A stretch of 25,310 bases of DNA from the IMG/VR virus record IMGVR_UViG_3300023178_000247, positions 1 to 25,310 of that record. The stretch is one strand, 5' to 3'. Shown here piece after piece: positions 2,717-8,326 of this stretch (the stretch's first letter is position 1; each line of letters opens with the position of its first letter). The notes under the pieces are model-generated. The model worked only from the letters and a program-made list of their open reading frames with translations, searched no databases and was not told where the DNA came from. A program made the translations under genes and the position numbers. The DNA is from a virus.

Positions 2717-3151
2717 ATGCAATGGACTTATCAAGGAAAACAAGTTGAAGAAATTCCGCAAGGAGTTGAAGGCTTTGTTTACTTGATAACCAATACTACC
2801 AATAATCGCAAATACATAGGCAAAAAACTAGCCAAATTCAAAACTACCAAGCCACCACTCAAAGGCAAGAAAAACAAAAGACGCGGAACTAAAGAATCAG
2901 ACTGGAGAGACTATTGGGGATCTTCAGATCATTTGATAGCAGACGTCAAGCGATTAGGCCCAGACAAGTTTACTAGAGAAATACTTCACTATTGTCCCAG
3001 CAGAGGCGTACTAAGCTATTTAGAGGCAAAGGAACAATTCGACCGAAGAGTTTTAGAGACAGATGAGTATTACAACGGAATTATTAATGTGCGGGTCGGA
3101 AGTTCCAAAGTATTAAAAGAATATTTACAGGCAAACAAGAACACTGTTTGA
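2717..3151 (+). CDS. GIY-YIG-type endonuclease, small
   Basis: The 144-residue product has a variant GIY-YIG core: GFVYLITN near residues 19-26, then NNRKYIGKK near 30-38. A WRDYWGSS segment follows near residues 63-70, and a glutamate in YLEAKEQFDRR near residues 101-111 matches the usual metal-binding Glu. Such domains make single- or double-strand DNA cuts. In T4-like phages they occur as free-standing homing enzymes (Seg family) and as small nucleases without a separate DNA-binding domain. This protein is at the short end, with no obvious extra binding domain. The start ATG at 2717 has only a weak ribosome-binding site. The stop touches a hairpin and a GC-rich, apparently structured RNA region, which could be linked to its function or target. 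Confidence 0.8.
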   Translation: MQWTYQGKQVEEIPQGVEGFVYLITNTTNNRKYIGKKLAKFKTTKPPLKGKKNKRRGTKESDWRDYWGSSDHLIADVKRLGPDKFTREILHYCPSRGVLSYLEAKEQFDRRVLETDEYYNGIINVRVGSSKVLKEYLQANKNTV

Positions 3152-3621: not shown

Positions 3622-3858
3622 TTAGTGCAAATCTGGATCTCTTCCAAAGCCTGGTTTAACTGTAGAATGTTGTGTTTCTATTATTTCGTACTCTGCATGT
3701 GGGTTTTGTAATTGCAACATCTGTAAGGTCTCGTTGGCTTGACTTACATCAAGCAGTTTGTCAACAACAACTTCACGTGTTCTTGCATCAATGATATGCC
3801 AATGAGTATACATATTATATGTGTCCTGCCCAATGACTACAATCATCATGTGGATCAT
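3622..3858 (-). CDS. small hypothetical protein (minus strand)
   Basis: The frame holds 78 codons from the ATG at 3858, but the likely start is debatable. No ribosome-binding site precedes 3858. The internal ATG at 3813 (MYTHWHIIDARTREVV, 63 residues) has AGGA about nine bases upstream. The sequence THWHIIDARTREVVVDKLLD and the rest (QANETLQMLQLQNPHAEYEI) look like a compact alpha/beta protein of ordinary composition; I do not recognise a family. It lies between two head-on regions and ends towards the terminator-like hairpins at 3497-3545. A candidate late-type promoter (AGTAAATA on the minus strand, 3889-3882) lies upstream. Confidence 0.55.
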   Translation of the reverse strand: MIHMMIVVIGQDTYNMYTHWHIIDARTREVVVDKLLDVSQANETLQMLQLQNPHAEYEIIETQHSTVKPGFGRDPDLH

Positions 3859-3938: not shown

Positions 3939-5003
3939 ATGAAAGTATATCAAATAACCGAAGCTAATCCTATCCAGTTAGATTTGCCTTTGCCTGGCGG
4001 CTCTGGCAAAGCCCCTCAGGTTTCTATTAAAAAAGTCGGCAATCTTTTCAACATATTTCATCCTGATGGCACAGTTATCGGAACAGTGAACAATAGAGCT
4101 GAAGCAGCATTTGCTAAAACAAAACTAAATTATGCAGTAAACAAACATGGCATAGACTCCAAACAGTTTAATAGTGCAATCAAGCAACTAAGCGGGTTTG
4201 GAAGTCCTATTGGTATGAAAACAGGAGAACCTAAAGGAAAAATAGGTAAGGCTAAAGGAAAAATAGGTAAAGTGCTAGACAAAATTCCAGGCGGCAGCAA
4301 AGTAGCAGGTATAGGATCTAAAATGCTAGCCATTGCGGCAAGAACAATAGTAGGAAAAATAGTTTTTACAATACTTGCAGTTGACGATATTCTTGATGAC
4401 GCTGATGGTTGGGCTAATGCATATATGGCAAATGGCTGTAAAGTAAACAAACAAACTGATGCATACGAAGTAAAAATCAAAGACACTATTACTGAAAATA
4501 TATTATTTTATGCAACCGGTGTGGTTGGTGCGGCCACCGGTGTAATTGGTAGATTAGCTATGCTTTTAGCACTTTTACCTATAGCAGGTTGGATAGCAAC
4601 TGCCCTAGCTTGGGTAGGATCAGCAGTGTTAGCAAGTATAGTAGCAAAACTACTGTCAAAAACATCTGTTGCAGAATGGATAGCTGACAAGTTCATAGGC
4701 ACTATGTTTGGTCCTGAAACACTAAAAATGATTAGTTTTCCTGAATGTCCAAACGAAAGCCTGCAAGAAGATTGGGAAAGAGGAATACTTGAAGACATTG
4801 CACAACTACAAGAAAAAAGAACAGCTACTTCCAATGCTCTTGCTAAAAAAGCAGCCGCAGAAATTAAAGATACATTCCTATCAGATCCAGAACTAATGAA
4901 AGTGTTAAAAGCCACTAAGAAAGCTGTAGACGCTGGAGAAATTGATAAACTTCCTAAGGGTGGTAAACAAGCTGCCCAAGCAATTAAAGCAAAGGCATCT
5001 TAG
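3939..5003 (+). CDS. putative internal (capsid-packaged, injected) protein with membrane helices
   Basis: The 354-residue product has no family I recognise. It begins MKVYQITEANP, closely parallel to the T4 internal-protein leader (MKTYQEFIAE|A in IPIII), with the gp21 cleavage consensus (I/L)-x-E at ITE|A, residues 6-9. That suggests a head-packaged protein trimmed by the prohead protease and ejected with DNA. Residues 97-112 hold a basic seven-residue tandem repeat (PKGKIGKAKGKIGK). Hydrophobic, glycine/alanine-rich segments lie at about 126-148 and 187-238 and could form membrane helices. The C-terminus is charged and helical. A late promoter lies at 3904; the ribosome-binding site is weak. 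Its last 20 bases overlap the end of the opposing gp51-like gene. A structural membrane-interacting tail protein is the alternative. Confidence 0.8.
   Translation: MKVYQITEANPIQLDLPLPGGSGKAPQVSIKKVGNLFNIFHPDGTVIGTVNNRAEAAFAKTKLNYAVNKHGIDSKQFNSAIKQLSGFGSPIGMKTGEPKGKIGKAKGKIGKVLDKIPGGSKVAGIGSKMLAIAARTIVGKIVFTILAVDDILDDADGWANAYMANGCKVNKQTDAYEVKIKDTITENILFYATGVVGAATGVIGRLAMLLALLPIAGWIATALAWVGSAVLASIVAKLLSKTSVAEWIADKFIGTMFGPETLKMISFPECPNESLQEDWERGILEDIAQLQEKRTATSNALAKKAAAEIKDTFLSDPELMKVLKATKKAVDAGEIDKLPKGGKQAAQAIKAKAS
4231..4270 (+). repeat. 21-nt period tandem repeat inside the internal-protein gene
   Basis: The 19-base unit CTAAAGGAAAAATAGGTAA occurs at 4231-4249 and 4252-4270. It encodes two copies of a basic seven-residue unit, KGKIGKA / KGKIGKV. 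The copies are identical at DNA level, suggesting a recent duplication. Confidence 0.85.
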
Positions 5004-5268
5004 TATCTTTAACTACATCAATATTTTCTTTGATAATTCTATTTAGAATTTCTTTGTCATCGTTAGTAATAGTATACATTAAATCATTGTATGAAAAACT
5101 ACCACGCATGTACCAGCCTATTTTATAAGCATCGTATTTGATTTGTTTGATTTCGTTTTCTAGAGTTTTGTCTAGCTCAATAATTTCAGATTCCTCGAGC
5201 GACTGGATCCTTGACCGAAAAAACTTGAAAAGTCCACATTGATTTTGCTCTTGTATTCGTGGGCGCAT
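4984..5268 (-). CDS. 51: gp51-like baseplate hub assembly protein; possible frameshift partner of gp26
   Basis: The frame reads leftward and ends in ...VVKDTKMPLL. Its recognisable part is AYKIGWYMRGSFSYNDLM followed by a helical tail (DKEILNRIIKENIDVVKDTK), which I associate with small gp51-type proteins after gp26 in marine T4-like phages; in T4 gp51 acts in baseplate hub assembly. The chosen ATG at 5268 has GGGGA just upstream; a GTG at 5283 is the alternative. Both starts lie far inside gp26 (97-base overlap for 5268), and the residues encoded in the overlap look poorly gene-like. A perfect slippery site T TTT TTC at 5223-5217 would move gp26 ribosomes into exactly this frame. It is much shorter than T4 gp51 (249 residues). 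The end overlaps the convergent 3939-5003 gene by 20 bases. Confidence 0.65.
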   Translation of the reverse strand: MRPRIQEQNQCGLFKFFRSRIQSLEESEIIELDKTLENEIKQIKYDAYKIGWYMRGSFSYNDLMYTITNDDKEILNRIIKENIDVVKDTKMPLL

Positions 5269-6041
5269 TCTTCCCCGCCACACTGTAAATCAAATGACGG
5301 TAAAGTCCATCCATCTGAAATTTCTTTAATTTTTGCTTGTAGTTCTTTATAAAACACTGCATCATTATTGGCTATAAAATCTAATATCGCAGATCTATCA
5401 GCTTCGCTGTCTGTTCCGTCTGTGATACTATCAATATATGATACAGCTAGTCTTAGTGTGACATTTGTCATTTTTGTCAGCACTTCTTGAAGCATTTTGT
5501 CTTTTTCTTCCTGCTTCATATCACTACTGTTGATCTGCATGACTTGTCTTTCAAGCATGTATTGTTCTTTTTGAAATTCTGTAGTAGTTTTATATTTGAT
5601 AGGAGCAATTTTTACAGTTAATTCTCCCATTTCTATTTGTCCTGTAATTTTATGATCGGAAAAACTTTCAAGCAGTTTGCCAAGACTTACTGTACTTTGA
5701 TTGGTTTCGTTGCATTTTGGACAATTTGTTTCTATAGGTAGATCATCACCGTAGGTTGCTATTCGTAATGCTAACAAGATATAGTCCATATCATATCCAA
5801 CTAGTGCCCACGGATTTAAAATTGCAGGTATGCAACTTTGAATTACTCTTACTGTTGCTTCACCTGAAAATAAAGCATCGGGTGTTTTTAATATTATTTC
5901 ATCCATAGCAGTCATACCATAGACAGCTAAGTTTGTGGCTTGCATATCTTGTAGGACTGTATTGTCATAAAACTGACCGCCACTTGGTAAATCAATAAAG
6001 ATTTTCGGCTGTCTTTTGTGTTTTTCTAATAATTTTGACAT
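5172..6041 (-). CDS. 26: gp26-like baseplate hub assembly protein
   Basis: The 289-residue product starts at the ATG at 6041, which has AGGA seven bases upstream; the further upstream in-frame ATG at 6071 lies at the promoter and has no such site. The N-terminus has FIDLPSGGQFYD (residues 15-26) followed by AVYGMTAMDEIILKTPDALF (39-58), the pattern I know from gp26 homologues of marine T4-like phages. A cysteine pair CPKC (107-110) and a later CGGEEC (254-259) could form a zinc site. T4 gp26 is needed to assemble the central baseplate hub and is shorter (208 residues). The last ~97 bases overlap the gp51-like frame, with a slippery heptamer at codons 274-275. It is transcribed against the tape-measure gene from a facing promoter. 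Confidence 0.8.
   Translation of the reverse strand: MSKLLEKHKRQPKIFIDLPSGGQFYDNTVLQDMQATNLAVYGMTAMDEIILKTPDALFSGEATVRVIQSCIPAILNPWALVGYDMDYILLALRIATYGDDLPIETNCPKCNETNQSTVSLGKLLESFSDHKITGQIEMGELTVKIAPIKYKTTTEFQKEQYMLERQVMQINSSDMKQEEKDKMLQEVLTKMTNVTLRLAVSYIDSITDGTDSEADRSAILDFIANNDAVFYKELQAKIKEISDGWTLPSFDLQCGGEECAHEYKSKINVDFSSFFGQGSSRSRNLKLLS
5217..5223 (-). promoter_or_regulatory. candidate -1 ribosomal frameshift site (T TTT TTC)
   Basis: On the minus strand gp26 is read as AGT TTT TTC GGT, which presents the canonical X XXY YYZ heptamer in frame. Slippage by -1 enters the gp51-like frame (TTT TTT CGG) and would give a fusion of about 350 residues. Only a weak interrupted downstream stem (AGTCGCTC with GAGCTAGAC) is visible. 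Confidence 0.5.
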
Positions 6042-6109: not shown

Positions 6110-8326
6110 ATGGCATTAGAAAGAGAAGATCGCGAAGCAATAGTAGAAGCTATCCAAGCAGGATTTAAGTCTGTTGGTAATGCACAAACTACAGGCGGCG
6201 GCGGTAGTACGGGCGGCGGAGGCGGCGGCGGTAGTTCTACAGTGTACAAAACTGCAAACGATGCAGTAGATGGTTTCGGAAAAGTTTTAGCACAAGGCGG
6301 CAACAGTATTACTACATTTTCTAAAGAAATAGCTGATATTTTACCAAGTTTCGCCGGAACAATAGCAGGTGTAGGTACTAGTATTGCTGGATACCTAGAA
6401 GATACACAAGGTGCATTTCAAGGACTTAGCAAAGTTGGTATTGGCCTAAACGGAAATCTAGGTGATTTAAGAGTACAAGCAGCAAAAACAAGAATGCCAC
6501 TAGATCAATTTGCAGGAATAGTATCCGCAAATTCACAAGCTCTTGTTGGTTTAGGAGGTAATGCTACTGACGGTGCTAAACGTTTTGCAGAACTTTCTGA
6601 TGTAATGTTCCGTGACGGAGCCATTGATGGTTTTATGAATCTAGGTTATAGTCTAGAAGAATCAAATGAATTTATCTTAAAAAATACACAGCTACTTAGA
6701 CGTCAAGCTCTACAAACAGGAATGAGCGATCAAGAACAAATCAAAGCTGCATCCGAACTTGCAAAAAACATGACTGTGGTTGCCAAACTAACTGGTAAAG
6801 ATGCAAAACAAATGCAAGATGAAATGATGGCTAAACAGCGTGACGGTGCAACACAGGCAAGTTTGCGTTTAATGGAAATGGACGGAGTTTCAAATGCTAC
6901 ACAAACATTTGGCGAAGTACAAAACATTTTATCATCTGGATCAAAAACACTACAGAATTTATTTTCAGATCAAGTACAAGCAAACGCTCCTCTTACAGAA
7001 GCAACTCAAAACTATGCAGCTGTAAACCAAGAAGCAGCAGCACTAGCACAACAGGCTAGAGATGCTATGGCACGTGGTGATAAAGAACGTGCAATGGAAT
7101 TAGCTAAACAGGCAGTAGCAGCTGAACAAGAATTTGCTAGTAGTAGGCAAGGTTTACAAATTGCTAGGTTTGCACAAATAAATGAAGTTGCACAAGCACA
7201 AGCAAATGTTCTTGAAGAAACAGGTGACTTGATTGATGCTACAAAAGCAGTAATTGATAAGATTAAAAAAAATACAGGCGTAGAACTTTCAATGAGAGAA
7301 GCCTTTGTGCAAAATCTAGAAACTATAAACACCAACATGGAAACGCAGATGTCCGGAAATCAACAAGGACAAGATGCGTTAAATGCAGTCAACAAAGCAC
7401 AGGTTGGTTTATCAAATACAGTATCAGACGCAAACCAAAAGATAGGTGAACAAATACAAACAAACAGTGTTTTGCTAGAAGGATTTTCACAAGTCGAAGG
7501 AGAAATAGGAAAAAAAGCCAAAGAAGCAATGGGTACTATAATTGATGGACTAAACAATCTAGTGCCTGGTACTACTCTTTCTGAAAATATTCCATTGATA
7601 CAAATGTTTGCAACAGAATTAGAAGCAGCAGGCAAAGATGTTGACGCTATTGTAGCCAATTTAAAAACATTAACTGATGCAACTGCAACACAAGAAGAAA
7701 AAAATCTAGCAAGAGATAAATTGCTTGCCGCTGAAGTAATAAACACATCAGGACAAATAACAGCAGCCTTTGCAAAAGAACTACAAAATATCAGAGAGGA
7801 TAATCAAGTCACCCAATCTCAAGCAGGAAATAACGATGAAGGAAGTTCTCTTTCATTAATAGGACGTATGTGGAATAGTATCAGCAGTTGGTTTGGTGAT
7901 GACGAAAACAGCAACATGAGCGGATCTGGCGGATTTAAAGATTTTGGCCAAGGATCTGCACAGCTATTACACGACCTAGAAGCTATTGTTCCTGCTAAAT
8001 CTCCAGAGGGACAACTGTTAGGAATGGCCAATAGTGGAGCATTAAGCAATCTATTAGCTGATCTAAGCGGTGGAAAGTTTGATCCTACACAGCTTGCCAA
8101 CGAAATGGCAACAACAGGTGTACCTATGTCAGAAGCTGCACAAACAACTATGGCTATGGCAAATACAAGCAAAACCGGTGCAACTAGTGAAGATTCTCTT
8201 GACAACCTGAACCAAAGTGTGCTACAATTAGTAGAAATAAATAAAAGAACGCTTGAAACTGCAAATAGACAACTGAAAGCAACCAAAGGTCTTGATGGAA
8301 ATCTAATGCAAAGCGTAGGAATTTAA
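6110..8326 (+). CDS. large virion protein, probable tail tape measure (gp29-like position)
   Basis: The 738-residue product starts at an ATG with AAGGAA nearby (6099-6104). After a short helical start comes a glycine linker (TTGGGGSTGGGGGGGSS, about residues 28-44). Next are a hydrophobic segment near 76-97 (DILPSFAGTIAGVGTSIAGY) and several hundred residues rich in alanine, glutamine and charged residues, with long helical/coiled-coil stretches (for example EAAALAQQARDAMARGDKER). This architecture, and the position beside gp26/gp51 hub-assembly genes, fits a tape measure that sets tail length. Direct similarity to T4 gp29 (590 residues) cannot be confirmed by eye. A different large structural protein remains possible. 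The stop is one base from the portal start. Confidence 0.65.
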   Translation: MALEREDREAIVEAIQAGFKSVGNAQTTGGGGSTGGGGGGGSSTVYKTANDAVDGFGKVLAQGGNSITTFSKEIADILPSFAGTIAGVGTSIAGYLEDTQGAFQGLSKVGIGLNGNLGDLRVQAAKTRMPLDQFAGIVSANSQALVGLGGNATDGAKRFAELSDVMFRDGAIDGFMNLGYSLEESNEFILKNTQLLRRQALQTGMSDQEQIKAASELAKNMTVVAKLTGKDAKQMQDEMMAKQRDGATQASLRLMEMDGVSNATQTFGEVQNILSSGSKTLQNLFSDQVQANAPLTEATQNYAAVNQEAAALAQQARDAMARGDKERAMELAKQAVAAEQEFASSRQGLQIARFAQINEVAQAQANVLEETGDLIDATKAVIDKIKKNTGVELSMREAFVQNLETINTNMETQMSGNQQGQDALNAVNKAQVGLSNTVSDANQKIGEQIQTNSVLLEGFSQVEGEIGKKAKEAMGTIIDGLNNLVPGTTLSENIPLIQMFATELEAAGKDVDAIVANLKTLTDATATQEEKNLARDKLLAAEVINTSGQITAAFAKELQNIREDNQVTQSQAGNNDEGSSLSLIGRMWNSISSWFGDDENSNMSGSGGFKDFGQGSAQLLHDLEAIVPAKSPEGQLLGMANSGALSNLLADLSGGKFDPTQLANEMATTGVPMSEAAQTTMAMANTSKTGATSEDSLDNLNQSVLQLVEINKRTLETANRQLKATKGLDGNLMQSVGI

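Follow-up and report, generated by a model that had tools for sequence, protein, structure and literature searches.

The window, by which we mean the whole 25,310-nt stretch of viral DNA analysed here, very probably carries a tail-assembly chaperone (TAC) gene of the T4 superfamily that is expressed by -1 programmed ribosomal frameshifting, giving a short form (TAC-N) and a 352-residue fusion (TAC-NC). Genes for the portal protein (gp20), a gp46-like protein, the head protease and the major capsid protein (gp23) are present in the window and place it in the T4 superfamily. The putative chaperone gene belongs to the gp26 family and is joined by a second frame on the same strand:

5172..6041, minus strand: gp26-family gene, short form (TAC-N), an open reading frame of 289 aa with ATG start and TAG stop
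5217..5223, minus strand: T TTT TTC slippery heptamer in the gp26 frame, read from the sequence
4984..5223, minus strand: -1 frame past the slip site (TAC-C), 79 codons including both Phe codons of the site, plus stop, from translation

A gp26-family gene with an in-frame slippery heptamer

Near the 3' end of gp26 the codons read AGT TTT TTC GGT, so that T TTT TTC, a -1 heptamer of the form X XXY YYZ, stands in the gp26 frame at 5223-5217 (-), just as the earlier note had reported from the letters. The note had also placed the downstream frame exactly in the -1 register, and its translation agrees: this frame is free of stops from 5289 to the stop at 4984 (-) and, from the slip site, translates as FFRSRIQSLEESEII... 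over 79 open codons. Residues 1-275 of gp26 are common to the short form and the fusion, to which the -1 frame would add 77 residues to reach the 352 of TAC-NC.

The gp26 protein matches PF12322 (T4_baseplate) in Pfam (E 2.7e-11) and PHROG 150 (baseplate hub) in PHROGs (E 1.7e-12), and PF12322 was found in the gp26-family genes of 46 out of 46 relatives. In a library of viral models, those of T4-like baseplate hub assembly proteins match its AlphaFold model (pLDDT 85), with E values down to 2.4e-19. Model confidence falls away from residue 277, directly past Phe-Phe 274-275, which is compatible with a non-conserved unshifted tail. Fold and profile comparison with the PDB gave no match for gp26 and no solved chaperone fold. 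The fold also resembles uncharacterised proteins of 450-690 aa from the giant phages RP12 and RSF1 of Ralstonia and Special G and phiEaH2 of Erwinia (E about 1e-5 to 1e-3); judging from the models, these proteins are possibly distant relatives of gp26.

The C-part is modelled as helical (pLDDT 91). Its sequence has no significant match to T4 gp51, to phrog_634 or to other PHROGs, and Foldseek against viral models returned nothing below E 0.1. In hhalign, the window C-part reached 7% when paired with the cyanophage C-part and 0.2% with T4 gp51; the cyanophage C-part paired with T4 gp51 reached 90%. Relatives of the window C-part are the C-parts of phages of the RaK2, Munch and PA5oct types. The name gp51 given to this frame earlier is not supported by sequence; the C-part is gp51-like by position and register only.

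The neighbouring gene, at 6110-8326, had been described as tape-measure-like. Neither Pfam nor PHROGs gave a tape-measure match for its 738-aa product, and that description is not supported; the protein that PA5oct has at this place carries a structural annotation based on mass spectrometry. Elsewhere in the window, a SegE-like GIY-YIG protein is encoded at 2717-3151 (+) (PF19835, E 7.4e-35), possibly a homing endonuclease by this domain match.

The heptamer and the -1 register are conserved among relatives

Taken alone, a single TTTTTTC has no significance: the window contains 13 copies, with 13.2 expected from shuffled sequence, which is what a chance origin of both heptamer and open frame has in its favour. 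Conservation is decisive, and we collected relatives by tblastn and contig scans, obtaining 109 usable loci, 68 of them distinct; T4 gp26 as scan query recovered only 6 loci. TTTTTTC stands in register near the end of gp26 in 109 of 109 related loci, with gp26 identity down to 23%, the outcome that the earlier note had named beforehand as the check on its proposal. The named relatives, namely Agrobacterium Atu_ph07, Sinorhizobium Phosso, Pseudomonas PA5oct, Salmonella Munch, Klebsiella RaK2, Salicola SCTP-2 and Serratia BF, share 23-28% identity with the window gp26. The records of these seven annotate the fusion in no case, and the second frame appears in them as a shorter separate gene or is absent.

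The frame past the slip is exactly 79 codons long in 61 of the 68 distinct relatives, and in all 61 of these equal-length relatives the codon directly past the slip encodes Arg. By contrast, the unshifted tail of gp26 varies in length, its stop lying 10 to 49 nt from the start of the heptamer across the 68 loci, so that what has been conserved is the -1 frame. An in-register TTTTTTC is also found in 80 of 80 cyanophage-type contigs. In a second branch (P-SSM2, S-PM2, HTVC008M, Cr30, phiM12, KVP40 and phiW-14), to which these contigs are related, TTTTTT(C/T) occupies the equivalent place, and each phage has one PF12322 gene followed by a phrog_634 (gp51) domain in the -1 frame. Seven complete genomes of relatives likewise hold a single PF12322 gene; the window record itself covers only 25 kb.

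The in-register heptamer is kept in every relative with the gp26/downstream-frame arrangement, two excepted, which refutes coincidence and leaves it a negligible probability. The two exceptions have a C-part-like open frame in +1 instead of -1, each as a single case. LR756508 (gp26 stop at 3760), a locus of the first survey, has no heptamer and no T-run, reading TTT CTA, and Rhodothermus phage RM378 (gp26 stop at 2041) has a run of seven T in TCC TTT TTT TGG. The two C-parts gave no significant match.

A run of T might also produce the fusion by slippage of RNA polymerase, and the 7- or 8-T runs of HTVC008M, Cr30, phiM12 and RM378 would suit that mechanism. In the window and its relatives, however, there are exactly six T in the run and then a C, a run short for polymerase slippage, and the X XXY YYZ register that ribosomes require is kept without exception in the group. 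We consider a transcriptional origin of the fusion very improbable. The conserved heptamer together with the conserved -1 frame points strongly to programmed ribosomal frameshifting.

Synonymous constraint at the slip site and candidate stimulators

Conservation at synonymous sites, which the earlier note had also asked for, is evident, and synonymous constraint is highest at the slip codons. Codon homozygosity is 0.86 for the codon before the Phe pair (0.39 expected) and 1.0 and 1.0 for the two Phe codons (0.76 expected). Given each gene's own codon usage, finding T in front of the Phe pair and TTT for its first Phe throughout the 68 has a probability of about 10^-24, and TTC for the second Phe throughout contributes a further 10^-51; both figures take the lineages as independent and are thereby overstated, and the Arg codon of the -1 frame also dictates the C of the second Phe. 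Downstream of the site, substitutions track the codon positions of the -1 frame (0.34, 0.21, 0.45).

Synonymous constraint is also seen further downstream, in one stretch of the 61 equal-length relatives, at +24, +27 and +33:

5186..5199, minus strand: conserved downstream stretch, +24 to +37 from the heptamer, CTCGAGGAATCTGA, candidate stimulatory element

At +33, Ser is encoded by TCT in 49 of 52 cases, with a background of 0.21. TCT is retained in 27 of 30 relatives where the gp26 frame is already over, so this codon bias suggests a signal at the RNA level. No significant downstream hairpin was predicted in the window (z 0.35), the mean fold z over the 68 relatives was -0.9, and no consensus RNA structure was found in the 61. 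A Shine-Dalgarno-like stimulator was seen in only one of 68 members of the window's group. In the cyanophage-type loci (L041, L042 and L139-L218), a sequence resembling GGAGG lies some 10 nt upstream of the heptamer, a distance equal to the known spacing of the dnaX stimulator, and GAG stands upstream of the slip in 33 of 35 distinct cyanophage genes (background 0.27).

Start codons of the -1 frame

The downstream frame might instead be a small gene with its own start, for example coupled to termination of gp26, with the T-run kept for Phe-Phe. The window does offer possible starts in the -1 frame, a GTG at 5283 and an ATG at 5268, which lie deep within gp26 as the earlier note had described them:

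5266..5268, minus strand: ATG of the -1 frame inside gp26, the sole ATG before the conserved part

Start codons are likewise found within 10 codons past the slip in all cyanophage-type members, and an ATG lies 3 codons past it in Atu_ph07 and Phosso. The ATG at 5268, however, is not conserved, being missing from most relatives, and we think that it is not used. In 38 of 68 lineages the -1 frame, taken from where it opens as far as 25 codons beyond the slip, contains no ATG, GTG or TTG, just 12 of 68 have an ATG by codon +12, and in Munch a -1 stop directly precedes the heptamer, so that independent initiation cannot be general. Nor does Phe-Phe require TTTTTTC, as T4 gp26 encodes the pair by TTC TTT, and coding constraint of the -1 frame begins at the slip itself with the invariant Arg. 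A separate start as the general mechanism thus appears already untenable for the lineages that have no start at all, and we rate this explanation as improbable; in cyanophage-type members, Atu_ph07 and Phosso, independent initiation is possible as an addition. The reading first offered for this locus, a -1 frameshift that joins gp26 to the next frame after the logic of G/GT, finds support in the conserved heptamer and register and in the many relatives with no other start.

Relation to T4, lambda and published frameshifted TAC genes

In T4, genes 26 and 51 are divergently transcribed, which rules out a frameshift in T4 itself. Both T4 proteins match PF12322 over the whole domain and gp51 has an extra C-terminal part that matches phrog_634, so the short and long forms are here two genes. 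On these matches, we take genes 26 and 51 to be divergent paralogues that encode the short and the long form separately. T4 gp26/gp51 thus resemble the window gene in having a short and a long form with the PF12322 domain, but differ in being two divergent genes without frameshift, and the Phe-Phe codons of T4 gp26 form no heptamer.

Frameshifting is reportedly conserved in several T4-like groups, with T4 itself said to use genes 26 and 51, according to Vladimirov, Gautam and Davidson in 2022. The T4 proteins gp26 and gp51 were listed among the hub assembly chaperones in a 2010 review (PMC3004832), and a 2016 review described G-T frameshifting as conserved in long-tailed phages 'except T4' (PMC5009743). 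T4-like phages with separate short and fused long TAC genes are attributed to Vladimirov, Gautam & Davidson 2022 in a passage of PMC10885494, and a passage of PMC12846349 credits the same work with poly-T -1 sites in the TAC-N genes of T4-like phages. The earlier note knew of no described frameshift between gp26 and gp51 in T4; going by that attribution, a frameshift of this kind is not new. Frameshifted TAC genes of T4-like phages are already published, and the window adds a new, well-supported case to them without being a discovery. As described in the PMC12846349 passage, these genes share with the window a PF12322-type TAC-N whose 3' end holds a poly-T -1 slippery site; unlike them, the window branch has a C-part without significant alignment to gp51. 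Lambda G/GT is comparable in that a -1 slip close to the 3' end of one gene yields both a short and a long product (PMC5009743), whereas no relation in sequence or fold to the window gene is established and the neighbourhood of the latter yielded no tape-measure gene.

Proposed mechanism and significance

In the mechanism that we propose, the majority of ribosomes would continue to the gp26 stop and release the 289-residue short form (TAC-N). A minority would slip back by one base on T TTT TTC, decode Arg (CGG) next and end 77 codons later, producing the 352-residue TAC-NC with its predicted helical C-terminal domain. Both slippage in vivo and its rate are what we infer. By analogy with lambda gpG/gpGT, the short form in many copies and the long form in few may bind the tape-measure protein and bring in tube subunits, and would not stay in the particle; this chaperone role is suggested by the lambda comparison and by the reported hub-chaperone role of T4 gp26/gp51.

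A more far-reaching reading, which we regard as doubtful, would have a TAC-C of separate origin from gp51 in the marine/jumbo branch and a new kind of stimulator there, the short +24 to +37 stretch in place of a hairpin or Shine-Dalgarno sequence, with the distant relatives RM378 and LR756508 having changed to a +1 shift. What is new here is the member group, the jumbo-phage records without the fusion, the conserved downstream element and the two apparent +1 exceptions.

Our result for the window agrees with T4, the 'exception' of the 2016 review, having the same short/long pair by way of a duplicated gene. With it, the range of frameshifted tail-chaperone genes widens to a large environmental group and also to jumbo phages for which the database entries break up the second frame, shorten it or leave it out.
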